DNA from: Streptomyces sp. NBC_00344
GTDB taxonomy: Bacteria > Actinomycetota > Actinomycetes > Streptomycetales > Streptomycetaceae
Direction of reading: 5' to 3'
NCBI RefSeq assembly: GCF_036088315.1
Contig: NZ_CP107996.1
Span: 1,632,501 to 1,696,500, forward strand
Length of the DNA: 64,000 nucleotides
Of the stretch, positions 22,950 through 28,585 are shown in pieces. The stretch's first letter is position 1. Every line of letters begins with the position of its first letter. The notes below the pieces were generated by a model. That model saw only the letters and a list, made by a program, of their open reading frames with translations, searched no databases and was not told the DNA's origin. The position numbers and the translations under genes are program-made.

Positions 22950-23903
22950 TCAGCTCTGCTCGTACGCCTGGATCAGAGCGGTGGAGCGCTTCACGTCGTC
23001 GGCGATGGCCACCAGCAGCGCCTCGATCGAATCGAACTTCTCCATGCCCCGCACATACGCCAGGAAGTCGACGGCGGCATGCATCCCGTACAGATCAAGG
23101 CCGACGCGGTCGATCGCGTAGGCCTCCACCGTGCGTTCGGTGCCGTTGAACTGCGGGTTGGAACCGATCGAGATCGCGGCCGGCATCCGTTCGCCGTCCG
23201 CGGTCAGCCACCCCGCGTAGACACCGTCCACCGGAATGGCGGTGTGCGGCAGGGTCTCGACGTTCGCTGTGGGGAAGCCCAGTTCACGACCGCGCTGCGC
23301 TCCGCGCACCACCACGCCCTCGACACGGTGCGGGCGGCCCAGGATCTCCGCCGCGCCCGTCATGTCGCCCTCGGCGACCAGCCGGCGGGTCAGGGTGGAG
23401 GAGAACGGCTCGCCGCCGCCCGCCTCGCCGCTCACCGAGAGGTCGACGACCTCGGTCTCGTAGTCGTAGGACGTGCCGTACTCGGCCAGCACCGCGACGT
23501 TGCCTGCCGCCCGGTGGCCGAAGCGGAAGTTGGGGCCCTCGATCACTGTCCGCGCGTGCAACTTGTCCACCAGGACCTTCACGATGAAGTCGGCGGGCGA
23601 CAGCTTCGAGAAATCCGCGGTGAACGGGAGGACCAGCTGAGCGTCCACGCCGAGTCCTGCCATCAGCTCCGCGCGCCGGTGGTGCGGTGCGAGCAGCGGC
23701 GGATGACTGCCGGGGCGGACGACTTCACTGGGGTGCGGGTCGAAAGTGACCACGACGGACGGCACACCGAGCTCGCGGGCGCGCTCCACGGTGCGCCCGA
23801 TGATCAGTTGGTGGCCACGGTGCACGCCGTCGTACGAGCCGATGGTGACGACGCTGCGTCCCCAGTCCTGGGGAATGTCCTCCAAGCCACGCCAGCGCTG
23901 CAC
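22950..23903 (-). CDS. ribF: Bifunctional riboflavin kinase / FAD synthetase
   Basis: Converts riboflavin to FMN and FAD. The 317-residue product has an N-terminal nucleotidyltransferase domain (VTIGSYDGVHRGHQLII, with the HxGH-type motif; VVVTFDPHPSEV) and a C-terminal riboflavin kinase domain (GRELGFPTANVE; the PTAN Thr/Asn bind Mg-ATP). The GTG at 23901-23903 follows GAGGAG. It lies downstream of the 1168-residue gene and about 3.8 kb from truB, whereas truB and ribF are adjacent in many bacteria. Confidence 0.96.
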   Translation of the reverse strand: MQRWRGLEDIPQDWGRSVVTIGSYDGVHRGHQLIIGRTVERARELGVPSVVVTFDPHPSEVVRPGSHPPLLAPHHRRAELMAGLGVDAQLVLPFTADFSKLSPADFIVKVLVDKLHARTVIEGPNFRFGHRAAGNVAVLAEYGTSYDYETEVVDLSVSGEAGGGEPFSSTLTRRLVAEGDMTGAAEILGRPHRVEGVVVRGAQRGRELGFPTANVETLPHTAIPVDGVYAGWLTADGERMPAAISIGSNPQFNGTERTVEAYAIDRVGLDLYGMHAAVDFLAYVRGMEKFDSIEALLVAIADDVKRSTALIQAYEQS

Positions 23904-23952: not shown

Positions 23953-26900
23953 TCATGCAGGTCTAAGACTGCCATGTCCGGCGCCGCTGGCTTGCATCGG
24001 CATGGGTGCACCCAGCTTCTCGACCATCCGGCGGGCGCTCGGCCCGACCACCACGGCCCACTCCTGGGGCGCCATGCTGAGCCAGCCGAGGATCTGCCCG
24101 GCGAAGCCGGGCACTTCACGGCAGAGCTCCACGAGCCGCCGGTCGAACCGGGCAGCCCCGTCCGGTGTACGGACCAGCAGCAGACCGGTGCGGTGCACGA
24201 GGTCGCGGGTCCTGAACTCGGCACGGTGGCCCGATCCCAGTGCGGCGGCCCGCAACAGGACCTCCGCGACCGACAGGTCGCCCGGCGCCTCGTGCCCGGG
24301 CTCGTACCGCTCGTACTCCAGCAGCATGTCGAGCAGTTCGTCGCGCAGGGGCTGTGAGCTCCGGCTCCCCGGCGCCGCGAGCACCGGGGCCAGGGCGCTG
24401 CGCATCCGGCGGGGGCGGCCCCGTACCAGGCCCGTGACGAGCGGCAGCAGGTCGGCGCGCGCTGCCGGACCGGCCTCGAGACGGCGTCCGACGAAGTCGG
24501 CGGCGTGCGCTGCTCCCTCCGGATGCCGGTCGGCGAAGGCGCGCACGAAAGCGGCGGCGCGGCGGGCGAGCTCCGGTGTGCCGGCTCCGGAGAGCGCGCG
24601 CAGGATCTCCTCCGCGTCCTGCGGCCGGTCTTCGATGCGTGTGCGGAAGGCGGCGAACACCGGATCCGGATGGGTGTGGAGTGCGGGGGCCAGAGCGGCC
24701 GCCGGCAGCTGCGGATGTCCGGTGGTGAAGAGCCTCAGGGCTCGGGGCAGATGATGCGCCCTGGTGCGCGCGTCCCCCACCAGCAGCGCGAGTGCCGGAC
24801 CGTGCAACGCGGCGTCGTCGGGATGCGTGAGCAGCGCGAGCGCGGCATATCCGAGCTGTTCACGGTCGGCGGCGCCCGCCGCCCGTGCGGCGGTCGGCAG
24901 GATATGGGCCGCAGCGGCGGCCCGGCGCCCCGGCCTGTCGTCGTGGGACCAGCGGTCGACGGCTCGGCACAACGCGGCCGGCTCGTCCTCGGCCAGCGCG
25001 GTGAGCAGTTCGTCCGCGCGAGGGTGCGCGGTGGCCACCAACGCCTCGGCGAGATCATCCACGGCGAGTTCGCGCCGGGTGTACAGCAGAGCCTGCGCCA
25101 CACCGGCGACGGTGGGGCGCAGCTCGGTGTGCGGGCCGTGGGGCAGAGGGCGCTCGTCGGCGAACCAGCGGCAGAGCAGCGGCTGTACCGATCGGGGGTC
25201 GGCCGCGAGCCGCCGGGCCACCGCGTCCAGATAGCGGTCGCCGGACTGCGCGCCTGGCGCACCGTCGGCGGGTACCAGCCGCCGCAGCAGATCGAGGCGT
25301 GGGCCCTCACCGATCCGCAGCCGCTCCCAGAATGAGCTGTCGAACCGGTCGAAGCCGCCGAGACGGTGCGGCCCGCCGGACCGCAGGGAGTGCAGGGTGA
25401 TCCGGTCGGCAAGGAGTTCGAGCACCCCGATGTGACGGCGGGGATCGGGGACGCGCAGCAGTACGTCACCGAGCAGCCGGGCCACCCATCCCTGGGCGTC
25501 GCGGGACGCGGCGAGGGCGCCGCTGGGTTGCTCCTGCTGCAGCCGGTCCAGTGCTGTGATGAGTACCCGCAGTCTCCGCCCGAGTGCACAGGAGCCGTGC
25601 CGGCGTTCCAGCAGAAGCATGGCCTGCACCGTCGGGCCGATCCGGTGCCGGGGCACGGCGGGCGGGCATCCGGAGCCGGCCACTGGCGTCGTCCGGGGCA
25701 CCACCGCAGCCGTCGCGCACCGCGGCAGCTCCCTGACCGCCGCGGCTGCCCGGTCCCCCGGCCAGCCGTGCACCAGCGGATCCAGAGCCCGGTCCACGTC
25801 GAGATGCGCGCCCTGCACCCAGTCGGCGAGCTCACTGTGGGCGAAGCGGAAGCCCGCTCCGGCGGGGGTCAGCAGCCCCTCCGCGAGTACGGCGGATGCC
25901 CACCCCGTGCGCCAGGGGAAGACCTCCTCGAAGGATGCGCGGGTCAGCTCGCCCTGGGCGGTCCCCAGACAGCGTCGCGCCGCCTCGTGCACCTGCCCCG
26001 AGACCCGGGCTGCCAGCCTCCGCACGACCGTGCCCCGGGATGCAGGGCTGCGCGCGGCCGCGATCCGTACGGCGATGCGCAGACAGAGCAGATCGAGGTA
26101 TGCGGTGAGGATGTCCTCCCGGCTCGGGTGTCCGTCCGTGCCGCCCGGGAGCGCCGCCCGGACTTCGGCGAGCATCCGCAGCGACAGCGGATGTGCGGCG
26201 TCCTGGGGCGCCGCGACGCCTTCGGGGATGCCATGACTTCTGCGGGCCGTCAGGGCCTCGTGCGGCAGCAGATCCCCGACGGAGATGTGCGGCGCGCGCC
26301 GCGGCGGGAGCCCGGAGACCCGGTCCCAGAACTCGGGCAGACAACCGACGATCATCCGCACGCCGTGAGAGGTCAGCCAGCCCGCTGTTTCCCTGGTCCA
26401 CACCGGCAGTACGGATGCCAGCGGGGGTGGCATCTCCTCGGGGCCGTCGAGCAGCACGAGCAGCGGCTGACCTGCGTCCGCGGCCAGCCGGGCCATCCGT
26501 TCGGGTGTGACGCGGTCCATGCCGGCGGCGCCCACGATGCGCCCGGCACGCCGTACCGCCCGCGCCACCGCGTCGGCGACCGATGCGTCGTCGGCGCGCA
26601 GATCGGCGCCGCGCAGCCAGACGGTCGGAGCCGGCTGAGGGCCGTGGGCCCGGCGTGCGGCCAGAGCCCGGAGTTCAGTGGTACGGCCGGTGCCCGGGTC
26701 GCCCACGAGTCCGGTCACGGGCACGTTCCCGGAGGTGAAGTCGGCCAACTGCCGTACGATGTGCCTCCGTTCGGCCATCTCGTGGAGAGGAGCCGGGCCA
26801 CCGGACAAGCCGACCGACAGCGCGGTCAGCTCCAGCACTCCCGCGAGATTCAGATCGGGCCCGTGTCCCGGCACGGTTGCCGCGTTACGGCTCAGCAGCG

Positions 26901-27459
26901 GTGCGAGCTCGGCTCCGCGCAGCGGCACGGCCAGACCCGGGGCCGGGTGTGCGCAGTGCAGAGCGGTGCCGAGCACTCCCAGCACCGCCCCGCTGGTCGC
27001 GTCGATGACGGGTCCGCCCACCGCCGCTCCGCCGAGCCGGAGCGCATCGCGGCAGTCCGTGCCCATCGCGAGCTCCAGGGCCGCATCGAGCCGGTGGCTG
27101 CCGTCGGCCGCCGTGTACGTCGCCGGGGACTCGCCCAGCACTCGCGCCGCCCGCCAGCCGGGGGCGGCGACCCGGACATAGGTGCCGGTCTCGACCCTGG
27201 ATCGCGGGGAGATCGGGAGCGGCCGCACACCGAGGCCGTCGGTCCGCACCAGCGCGAGTCCGAGGTGGGGCAGCGCGGTGATCGCGTCGGCTCCGGCGAT
27301 CCAGGTCCGCTCGCCCGGGGCGTGCAGCACGGCTCCGGTGAGCCCGTCGACCGCCTGATGGCTGGTCACCACCGTGCCGAGATCGTCGGCGACGAAGCCG
27401 GTCCCTCGTAACCGCCCCGCACGATCGCAGATGCCTACCAGCGTCTCCCCGCTTCCCAT
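23953..27459 (-). CDS. Degenerate trypsin-like domain fused to a P-loop NTPase and helical repeats
   Basis: An 1168-residue protein, start taken at the ATG at 27457-27459. Residues 1-165 resemble a chymotrypsin-fold protease. His34 is present in VVTSHQAVDG, but the Asp position (HLGLAL, residue 67) is Gly and the Ser position (AAVGGPVID, residue 147) is Val, so it is probably inactive. A P-loop NTPase follows: GDPGTGRTT near 252-260, with Arg replacing the Walker A Lys, and Walker B LLVLLDGPEE near 332-341. About 600 residues of alpha-helical, repeat-like sequence complete it. This is STAND-like architecture (effector, NTPase, sensor repeats). It lies between truB and ribF and looks vertically inherited in base composition. 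Function unknown. Confidence 0.75.
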   Translation of the reverse strand: MGSGETLVGICDRAGRLRGTGFVADDLGTVVTSHQAVDGLTGAVLHAPGERTWIAGADAITALPHLGLALVRTDGLGVRPLPISPRSRVETGTYVRVAAPGWRAARVLGESPATYTAADGSHRLDAALELAMGTDCRDALRLGGAAVGGPVIDATSGAVLGVLGTALHCAHPAPGLAVPLRGAELAPLLSRNAATVPGHGPDLNLAGVLELTALSVGLSGGPAPLHEMAERRHIVRQLADFTSGNVPVTGLVGDPGTGRTTELRALAARRAHGPQPAPTVWLRGADLRADDASVADAVARAVRRAGRIVGAAGMDRVTPERMARLAADAGQPLLVLLDGPEEMPPPLASVLPVWTRETAGWLTSHGVRMIVGCLPEFWDRVSGLPPRRAPHISVGDLLPHEALTARRSHGIPEGVAAPQDAAHPLSLRMLAEVRAALPGGTDGHPSREDILTAYLDLLCLRIAVRIAAARSPASRGTVVRRLAARVSGQVHEAARRCLGTAQGELTRASFEEVFPWRTGWASAVLAEGLLTPAGAGFRFAHSELADWVQGAHLDVDRALDPLVHGWPGDRAAAAVRELPRCATAAVVPRTTPVAGSGCPPAVPRHRIGPTVQAMLLLERRHGSCALGRRLRVLITALDRLQQEQPSGALAASRDAQGWVARLLGDVLLRVPDPRRHIGVLELLADRITLHSLRSGGPHRLGGFDRFDSSFWERLRIGEGPRLDLLRRLVPADGAPGAQSGDRYLDAVARRLAADPRSVQPLLCRWFADERPLPHGPHTELRPTVAGVAQALLYTRRELAVDDLAEALVATAHPRADELLTALAEDEPAALCRAVDRWSHDDRPGRRAAAAAHILPTAARAAGAADREQLGYAALALLTHPDDAALHGPALALLVGDARTRAHHLPRALRLFTTGHPQLPAAALAPALHTHPDPVFAAFRTRIEDRPQDAEEILRALSGAGTPELARRAAAFVRAFADRHPEGAAHAADFVGRRLEAGPAARADLLPLVTGLVRGRPRRMRSALAPVLAAPGSRSSQPLRDELLDMLLEYERYEPGHEAPGDLSVAEVLLRAAALGSGHRAEFRTRDLVHRTGLLLVRTPDGAARFDRRLVELCREVPGFAGQILGWLSMAPQEWAVVVGPSARRMVEKLGAPMPMQASGAGHGSLRPA

Positions 27460-27602: not shown

Positions 27603-27636
27603 CGTGGAGCGGGCCTGAGGCCCTGCCCGCTCCACG
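27603..27636 (-). terminator. Terminator after truB
   Basis: CGTGGAGCGGGC (27603-27614) and GCCCGCTCCACG (27625-27636) form a perfect 12-bp stem with a 10-base loop, about 50 bp beyond the truB stop. It probably ends the nusA-infB operon. Confidence 0.8.
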
Positions 27637-27685: not shown

Positions 27686-28585
27686 TCAGCCGAAGACGGC
27701 CAGGCTCTTCGCCTTGCCGTTCTGGTCCTCGACCAGGGCAAGGAGATGCCCCTCGGGACCGAAGGCGGCCACCGCTCCGGCCGGGTAGGCGGGCATCTCC
27801 AGCCTGACGCCGTTCAGCAGCAGCCGGGCTCTCTTCTCGTCCACGTCCCAGCGCGGGAAGGCCGCGGCGGCGGCATCGGCGGCAGGCATCACGGTGAGCT
27901 CTTCCTGGAGCTGGTCCAGGGTCCTTGCCGCGTCCAGCCCGTACGGGCCGACCCTGGTGCGCCGCAGGGCGGTGAGGTGGCCGCCGACACCGGTCTCGGC
28001 GCCGAGGTCACGGGCGATGGCACGGATGTACGTACCGGACGAGCAGACCACCGAGACGACCAGGTCGATCACCGGCGTCCCGTCGTCGGCGACAGCCGGC
28101 CGGACGTCGTGGACCTGGAACGAGGAGACGGTCACCGGGCGGGCCGGGATCTCGAAGTCCTCGCCACCGCGCACCCGTGCGTAGGAGCGCTTTCCGTCGA
28201 TCTTGATGGCGCTGACCTTGGAGGGCACCTGCATGATGGCACCGGTCTGCTTGGCCACGCCCGCGTCGATGGCCTCCCGGGTGACCCCCGAAGCGTCACT
28301 GGACGAGATGATCTCGCCCTCCGCGTCGTCGGTGATCGTGTTCTGGCCGAGCCGGATCGTGCCGAGGTACTCCTTCTCGGTCAGCGCGAGATGCCCGAGC
28401 ATCTTGGTCGCCCTCTCCACACCGAGTACCAGTACGCCGGTGGCCATCGGGTCGAGGGTGCCGGCATGGCCCACGCGCCGGGTCCTGGCGATTCCGCGCA
28501 TCTTGGCCACGACGTCGTGCGAGGTGAAGCCGGACGGCTTGTCGACGATGACAAGTCCGTCCGGCGTCGTGTTCTGCTGTGTCAT
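27686..28585 (-). CDS. truB: tRNA pseudouridine(55) synthase
   Basis: Forms pseudouridine 55 in the T loop of tRNAs. The 299-residue product has the catalytic block VGHAGTLDPMATGVL with the nucleophilic Asp, YLGTIRLG, and the RxY-type YARVRGG and SSGTYIRAIARDLG motifs. The C-terminus is the actinobacterial PUA-like type. The ATG overlaps the rbfA stop (ATGA, 28582-28585). Last gene of the translation operon. Confidence 0.96.
   Translation of the reverse strand: MTQQNTTPDGLVIVDKPSGFTSHDVVAKMRGIARTRRVGHAGTLDPMATGVLVLGVERATKMLGHLALTEKEYLGTIRLGQNTITDDAEGEIISSSDASGVTREAIDAGVAKQTGAIMQVPSKVSAIKIDGKRSYARVRGGEDFEIPARPVTVSSFQVHDVRPAVADDGTPVIDLVVSVVCSSGTYIRAIARDLGAETGVGGHLTALRRTRVGPYGLDAARTLDQLQEELTVMPAADAAAAAFPRWDVDEKRARLLLNGVRLEMPAYPAGAVAAFGPEGHLLALVEDQNGKAKSLAVFG

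Follow-up and report, generated by a model that had tools for sequence, protein, structure and literature searches.

A predicted NLR-like protein with a protease-fold N-terminus encoded between truB and ribF in Streptomyces

Locus and domain organization

The window analysed here is a 64,000-nucleotide stretch of DNA from Streptomyces sp. NBC_00344 (contig NZ_CP107996.1, positions 1,632,501 to 1,696,500). Between truB and ribF it carries a gene, here called X, which runs on the minus strand from an ATG at 27459 to a stop codon at 23953-23955 and encodes 1168 residues. An earlier note on this DNA had described X as an inactive-looking protease joined to a STAND-type NTPase and helical repeats, at a site that did not look mobile, and had proposed it as a candidate for an undescribed system. 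The gene, its predicted domains and its neighbours are the following.

23953..27459, minus strand: gene X, 1168 residues, with pseudo-HtrA, NACHT/STAND and helical solenoid parts
26875..27447, minus strand: predicted HtrA/S1C-like chymotrypsin fold without a catalytic triad, residues 5-195
26125..26778, minus strand: NACHT-type P-loop domain, residues 228-445
26677..26703, minus strand: Walker A motif GDPGTGRTT with a fixed Arg259, residues 253-261
26434..26460, minus strand: Walker B motif LVLLDGPEE, of the NACHT type D-[GAS]-x-[DE]-E, residues 334-342
25765..26121, minus strand: helical and winged-helix domain (WH) with H541, which resembles the WH-His, residues 447-565; strongest constraint, with a median dN/dS (nonsynonymous to synonymous substitution ratio) of 0.08
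24010..25647, minus strand: alpha-helical solenoid, the presumed sensor, residues 605-1150
27686..28585, minus strand: truB, upstream flank of X
22950..23903, minus strand: ribF, downstream flank of X, with a probable GTG start at 23903

X is present once in its own genome (search at E 1); the sole other match at that threshold covers residues 12-100 with 28% identity and an E value of 0.06. An NCBIfam scan of X gave nothing beyond a sub-threshold P-loop match (E 0.26). The highest 19-residue Kyte-Doolittle mean is 1.68, and because none of its stretches is hydrophobic enough to suggest a clear membrane helix, the protein is probably cytosolic. We take SCO5710 to be a locus tag for this gene and used it as a literature query. 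Searches with this tag and with truB/ribF/rbfA turned up nothing on gene X in the portions of the sources available (including PMC3716926).

Protease-like domain

In a comparison with HtrA/S1C (Trypsin_2) proteases, the N-terminus of X has the chymotrypsin fold but lacks the His-Asp-Ser triad, and the equivalents of His57, Asp102 and Ser195 are Gln35 (27355-27357), Gly67 (27259-27261) and Val147 (27019-27021), respectively. The structure comparison used VIA-align, which re-ranks Foldseek's own list, so that a fold absent from that list would not appear. The earlier note's placement of Gly67 and Val147 at the Asp and Ser positions is borne out, but its choice of His34 as the retained catalytic residue is not: the register of the catalytic His is off by one from His34 in all alignments shown. 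Residue 35 is Glu in 98, Gln in 20 and Arg in 2 of 120 listed rows, and is never His in these or in a 101-row set. The catalytic Ser is missing in 105 of the 120 rows and the Asp in 87. A nominal His34-Asp67-Ser147 combination occurs in 4 of the 120 rows and in 2 of the 80 named loci that ranked best among the 527 found. These are not intact triads, because residue 35 is Glu and residue 146 is Ala, where the aligned HtrAs have Asn. The PDZ domain that usually follows the protease part of HtrAs gave no match in X at E 1, and the NACHT module is found there instead. Many database entries name X homologues serine protease or S1 peptidase; this annotation is to be corrected, as the triad is present in none of the rows examined.

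NACHT module

The next part of X has a predicted NACHT-WH fold, for which the best rows are NLRP3, NOD2 and NLRC4; hhalign comparisons of the NACHT part gave 98-99%. As the earlier note had read from a single sequence, Arg takes the place of the Walker A Lys: it is found in 120/120 and 100/101 rows of the two sets and Lys in none (0/120 and 0/101), whereas all 15 NACHT comparators have Lys. Neither result that the earlier note had named as refuting its reading appeared: the N-terminus is protease-like, and the orthologues gave neither an intact triad nor a Walker A Lys. The Walker B acids and the WH-His are largely kept, with D338 and E341 present in all 101 rows, E342 in 98 and H541 in 93. 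Arg259 probably retains nucleotide binding, with hydrolysis slow or absent. The lone orthologue without Arg259 among the 80 named loci, from Streptomyces hydrogenans (L148), has also lost the P-loop motif residues that follow. The Pfam NACHT model (PF05729) matches 6 of 28 rows (best 1.6e-4) and 9 of 54 (best 2.7e-5).

The X NTPase profile also met a second Streptomyces STAND family in three same-genus genomes (L214 1842-5069, also L215 and L216; E 7.6e-5 to 1.3e-4), with frames of 1076-1107 residues. Its P-loop is GxPGxGR[ST] in 3/3 genomes (GAPGTGRTT in L214), which rules out the arginine Walker A as a trait unique to X and makes it a recurrent Streptomyces variant. The L214 protein (1076 residues), the window genome's own copy of this family, shares this arginine with X, but it has no trypsin domain in the 400 residues scanned and is sited elsewhere in the genome. 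It scores above cut-off for AAA_16 and AAA_22. On local rescoring the X profile did not match this second family, and closer kinship is thus unsupported.

Solenoid and selection

Helices in the X model span residues 607 to 1150, in keeping with the helical repeats that the earlier note had proposed behind the NTPase. Residues 569-599 and the final 14 residues have a pLDDT (predicted local distance difference test) below 50 and are probably disordered.

Selection was estimated by the Nei-Gojobori method with our own script. Of 101 pairs at 80-95% protein identity, 22 with no locus in common were used (21 in the case of the linker). The median dN/dS values, with the top single value in brackets, are 0.23 (0.41) for the protease part, 0.36 (0.67) for the NTPase, 0.08 (0.54) for the WH domain, 0.58 (2.08) for the linker, 0.26 (0.36) for the solenoid and 0.28 (0.74) for residues 1051-1140. 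X is under purifying selection.

Distribution and inheritance

Both flanking genes are present in 78 of the 80 named loci, and all 78 have the order truB-X-ribF (75 by script, and three from coordinates where a long stop-to-stop frame misled the script), which agrees with the non-mobile site of the earlier note. One X frame is found in each of the 80. X occurs in 77 of 84 genomes of the genus, the window genome included, in 43 of 61 genomes and 9 of 17 genera of a family sample, and in 0 of 15 genomes from other families of the order. The 101-row tree omits six two-frame loci and also L035, which is the same gene as L025. Within its family, X is inherited vertically at the truB-ribF locus.

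In the 20 X-negative family genomes examined (of 24), a gap of 6-337 bases without an X match separates truB from ribF in 20/20; these gaps end at the match to a ribF query that starts 52 codons ahead of the likely ribF start and may be up to ~156 bases short. Of four genomes outside the family, two have an unrelated opposite-strand gene between truB and ribF, one a 107-base gap and one a stretch without truB. In Streptomyces sp. BHT-5-2 (L201 3557-6885), all that is left of X between truB and ribF is a solenoid remnant of 404 residues, on a 2.8-Mb replicon filed as a plasmid. This remnant and the mixed genera make it likely that X has been lost within the family.

X had no match in 50,697 phage records and one in 72,556 plasmid records; this match spans 16% of X, and its replicon also has truB and ribF. 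Outside the family, the whole X profile found protease-domain matches only (3 of 118 genomes), and the NACHT part found weak P-loop matches only (3 of 118, E 1.7e-5 to 7.4e-4), with the candidates of most genomes scored in part.

Noncoding elements

Two features of the gaps around X are described here:

27603..27636, minus strand: terminator-like hairpin with a 12-bp perfect stem, after truB, between truB and X
23957..23976, minus strand: conserved 20-base element CATGGCAGTCTTAGACCTGC, which overlaps the final codons of X, read as a ribF upstream element and not as a peptide motif

A perfect stem of at least 9 bp is present in the truB-X gap of 36 of 78 named loci and absent from 42 (shuffled mean 6). 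At the other end, the window has 49 bases between the X stop and the likely start of ribF. The 20-base element is nearly invariant upstream of ribF, in the form CATGGCA(GT/CC/CT)CTTAGACCTGC. Its core pattern occurs exactly once in 19 of 25 same-genus genomes, zero times in the remaining 6 and in 0 of 16 genomes outside the genus, and a reversed-pattern control gave 1/41. In X-negative genomes the element lies between truB and ribF in 11/20 with a degenerate pattern and in 4/20 with at most 2 mismatches to the 16-base core. No conserved RNA fold was found at the element (93 sequences, consensus energy -2.0). As it persists in some X-negative genomes and shows no conserved RNA fold, the element is probably a DNA site for ribF.

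The C-terminal peptide HGSLRPA, present in 107 of the 120 listed rows and 37 of the 80 named loci, was considered as a docking motif. Across 38 sequences selected for encoding the peptide, from the window and 37 loci, codons -7 to -2 do not vary at any of their three positions, nor does the last codon at its first two bases; these codons are rare in Streptomyces. The invariant bases, the location of the element past the X stop in many other loci and its persistence in X-negative genomes rule out a docking motif. Elsewhere in the window are an Scr5676 small RNA (Rfam RF02832, 55801-55930, plus strand, 107.9 bits) and an Actino-pnp RNA (RF01688, 9684-9741, minus strand, 65.2 bits).

Discussion

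The anatomy of X, as computed from its sequence and a structural model, is a predicted HtrA fold without catalytic residues, followed by a NACHT-WH module with an arginine Walker A and a solenoid. Two catalytic features, the protease triad and the Walker A Lys, are missing; X is therefore classed as an NLR-like variant with a NACHT fold, and neither with the HtrA proteases nor with the canonical NACHT NTPases. It is a lone conserved gene, and the undescribed system proposed in the earlier note is not demonstrated.

MamO binds metal and, to our knowledge, has neither a NACHT module nor a solenoid. This protein of magnetotactic bacteria is an HtrA-fold pseudoprotease, according to the portion of the report available (PMC4794232). 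The animal NLRs NLRP3, NOD2 and NLRC4 are 10-15% identical to X and have leucine-rich repeats, whereas X has the Arg in Walker A, a helical solenoid and a dead HtrA N-terminus. In the available portion of PMC12169576, the bacterial proteins bNACHT02, 12, 25 and 32 have a tripartite NLR-like layout that is common to X. The bNACHT proteins are antiphage, some with an active nuclease effector, whereas X has a fixed place among housekeeping genes. Inactive trypsin and inactive STAND domains, as in X, also occur in conflict systems of multicellular bacteria such as the VMAP and iSTAND systems, although iSTAND is reported to be almost absent from actinobacteria (Kaur et al. 2020, PMC7159879, as far as the available portion goes). 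These systems have MoxR-vWA partners; X is instead flanked by truB and ribF in all 78 named loci that hold both.

We give about an even chance to the reading of X as an NLR-like STAND switch in the cytosol, with a pseudoprotease at one end. In such a switch the solenoid would bind a ligand as the sensor. Nucleotide held by the P-loop, Arg259, the Walker B acids and H541 would keep X closed or permit opening and oligomerisation, and the pseudo-HtrA domain would then bind a protein segment without cutting it, as an adaptor or recruiter. More tentatively, X could be a near-core, vertically inherited NLR-like protein of Streptomycetaceae, with a pseudoenzyme effector and an arginine-locked, non-hydrolysing NACHT sensor, co-opted for housekeeping or development instead of mobile defence and possibly expressed with ribF. 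Several observations weigh against a switch of this kind. His34 is nearly fixed (120/120 and 98/101 rows), which plain decay of a protease leaves unexplained; adjoining the lost catalytic position, it may mark a binding site. Sensor-1 position 374 is Arg in 88 of 101 rows and Leu in the X of the window. PF05729 does not match X, also when X's own genome is scanned at E 0.01. The arginine Walker A may be no more than an ordinary variant, and perhaps a working one. X is absent from 7 of the 84 same-genus genomes, and in 6 of 20 distant loci it is split over two separate frames, which are true breaks or assembly errors.

An antiphage role is rather doubtful: X would be a bNACHT-type protein fixed in the Streptomyces chromosome, its dead trypsin end a decoy or dominant-negative binder of phage proteins. 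The layout shared with bNACHT proteins (PMC12169576, in part), the inactive trypsin domains of conflict systems in multicellular bacteria (PMC7159879, in part) and the patchy presence of X favor it, but X is a single-copy gene at a fixed housekeeping locus, is absent from the phage records and has its lone plasmid match on a truB/ribF replicon. MoxR-vWA neighbours are absent, and no PADLOC 2.0.0 family matches X at E 1 or better; at E 0.01, 28 rows gave weak matches to OloA (2), mad8 (2) and PDC-M54A (1), the best at 1.7e-4. It is unlikely that X is a constitutive scaffold without nucleotide switching, offering binding surfaces for growth, differentiation or ribosome/flavin homeostasis, for example. 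Both enzyme centres are altered, inheritance is vertical and ribF is 49 bases away, but a plain scaffold has no need of the Walker B acids and WH-His retained in most rows. The near invariance of His34 and the four rows with D67 and S147 could point to a protease that is active through a rearranged catalytic site with His34. With the register one off, Ser and Asp missing from most rows and His34 itself lost in some, we consider this very improbable. That X is a functionless, dying gene is hardly credible, despite the genomes and loci in which it is missing or split, the BHT-5-2 remnant and the Walker A lost in L148, because dN/dS is low in the folded parts (medians of 0.08-0.36, with 0.58 in the linker); an unbroken frame is also kept in every named locus.

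If X is an NLR-like switch, a genetically tractable bacterial family would possess this architecture in a gene that is inherited vertically and widely retained. X would then allow NACHT proteins to be studied outside mobile defence, and the question to be put whether the arginine Walker A works as a nucleotide switch.
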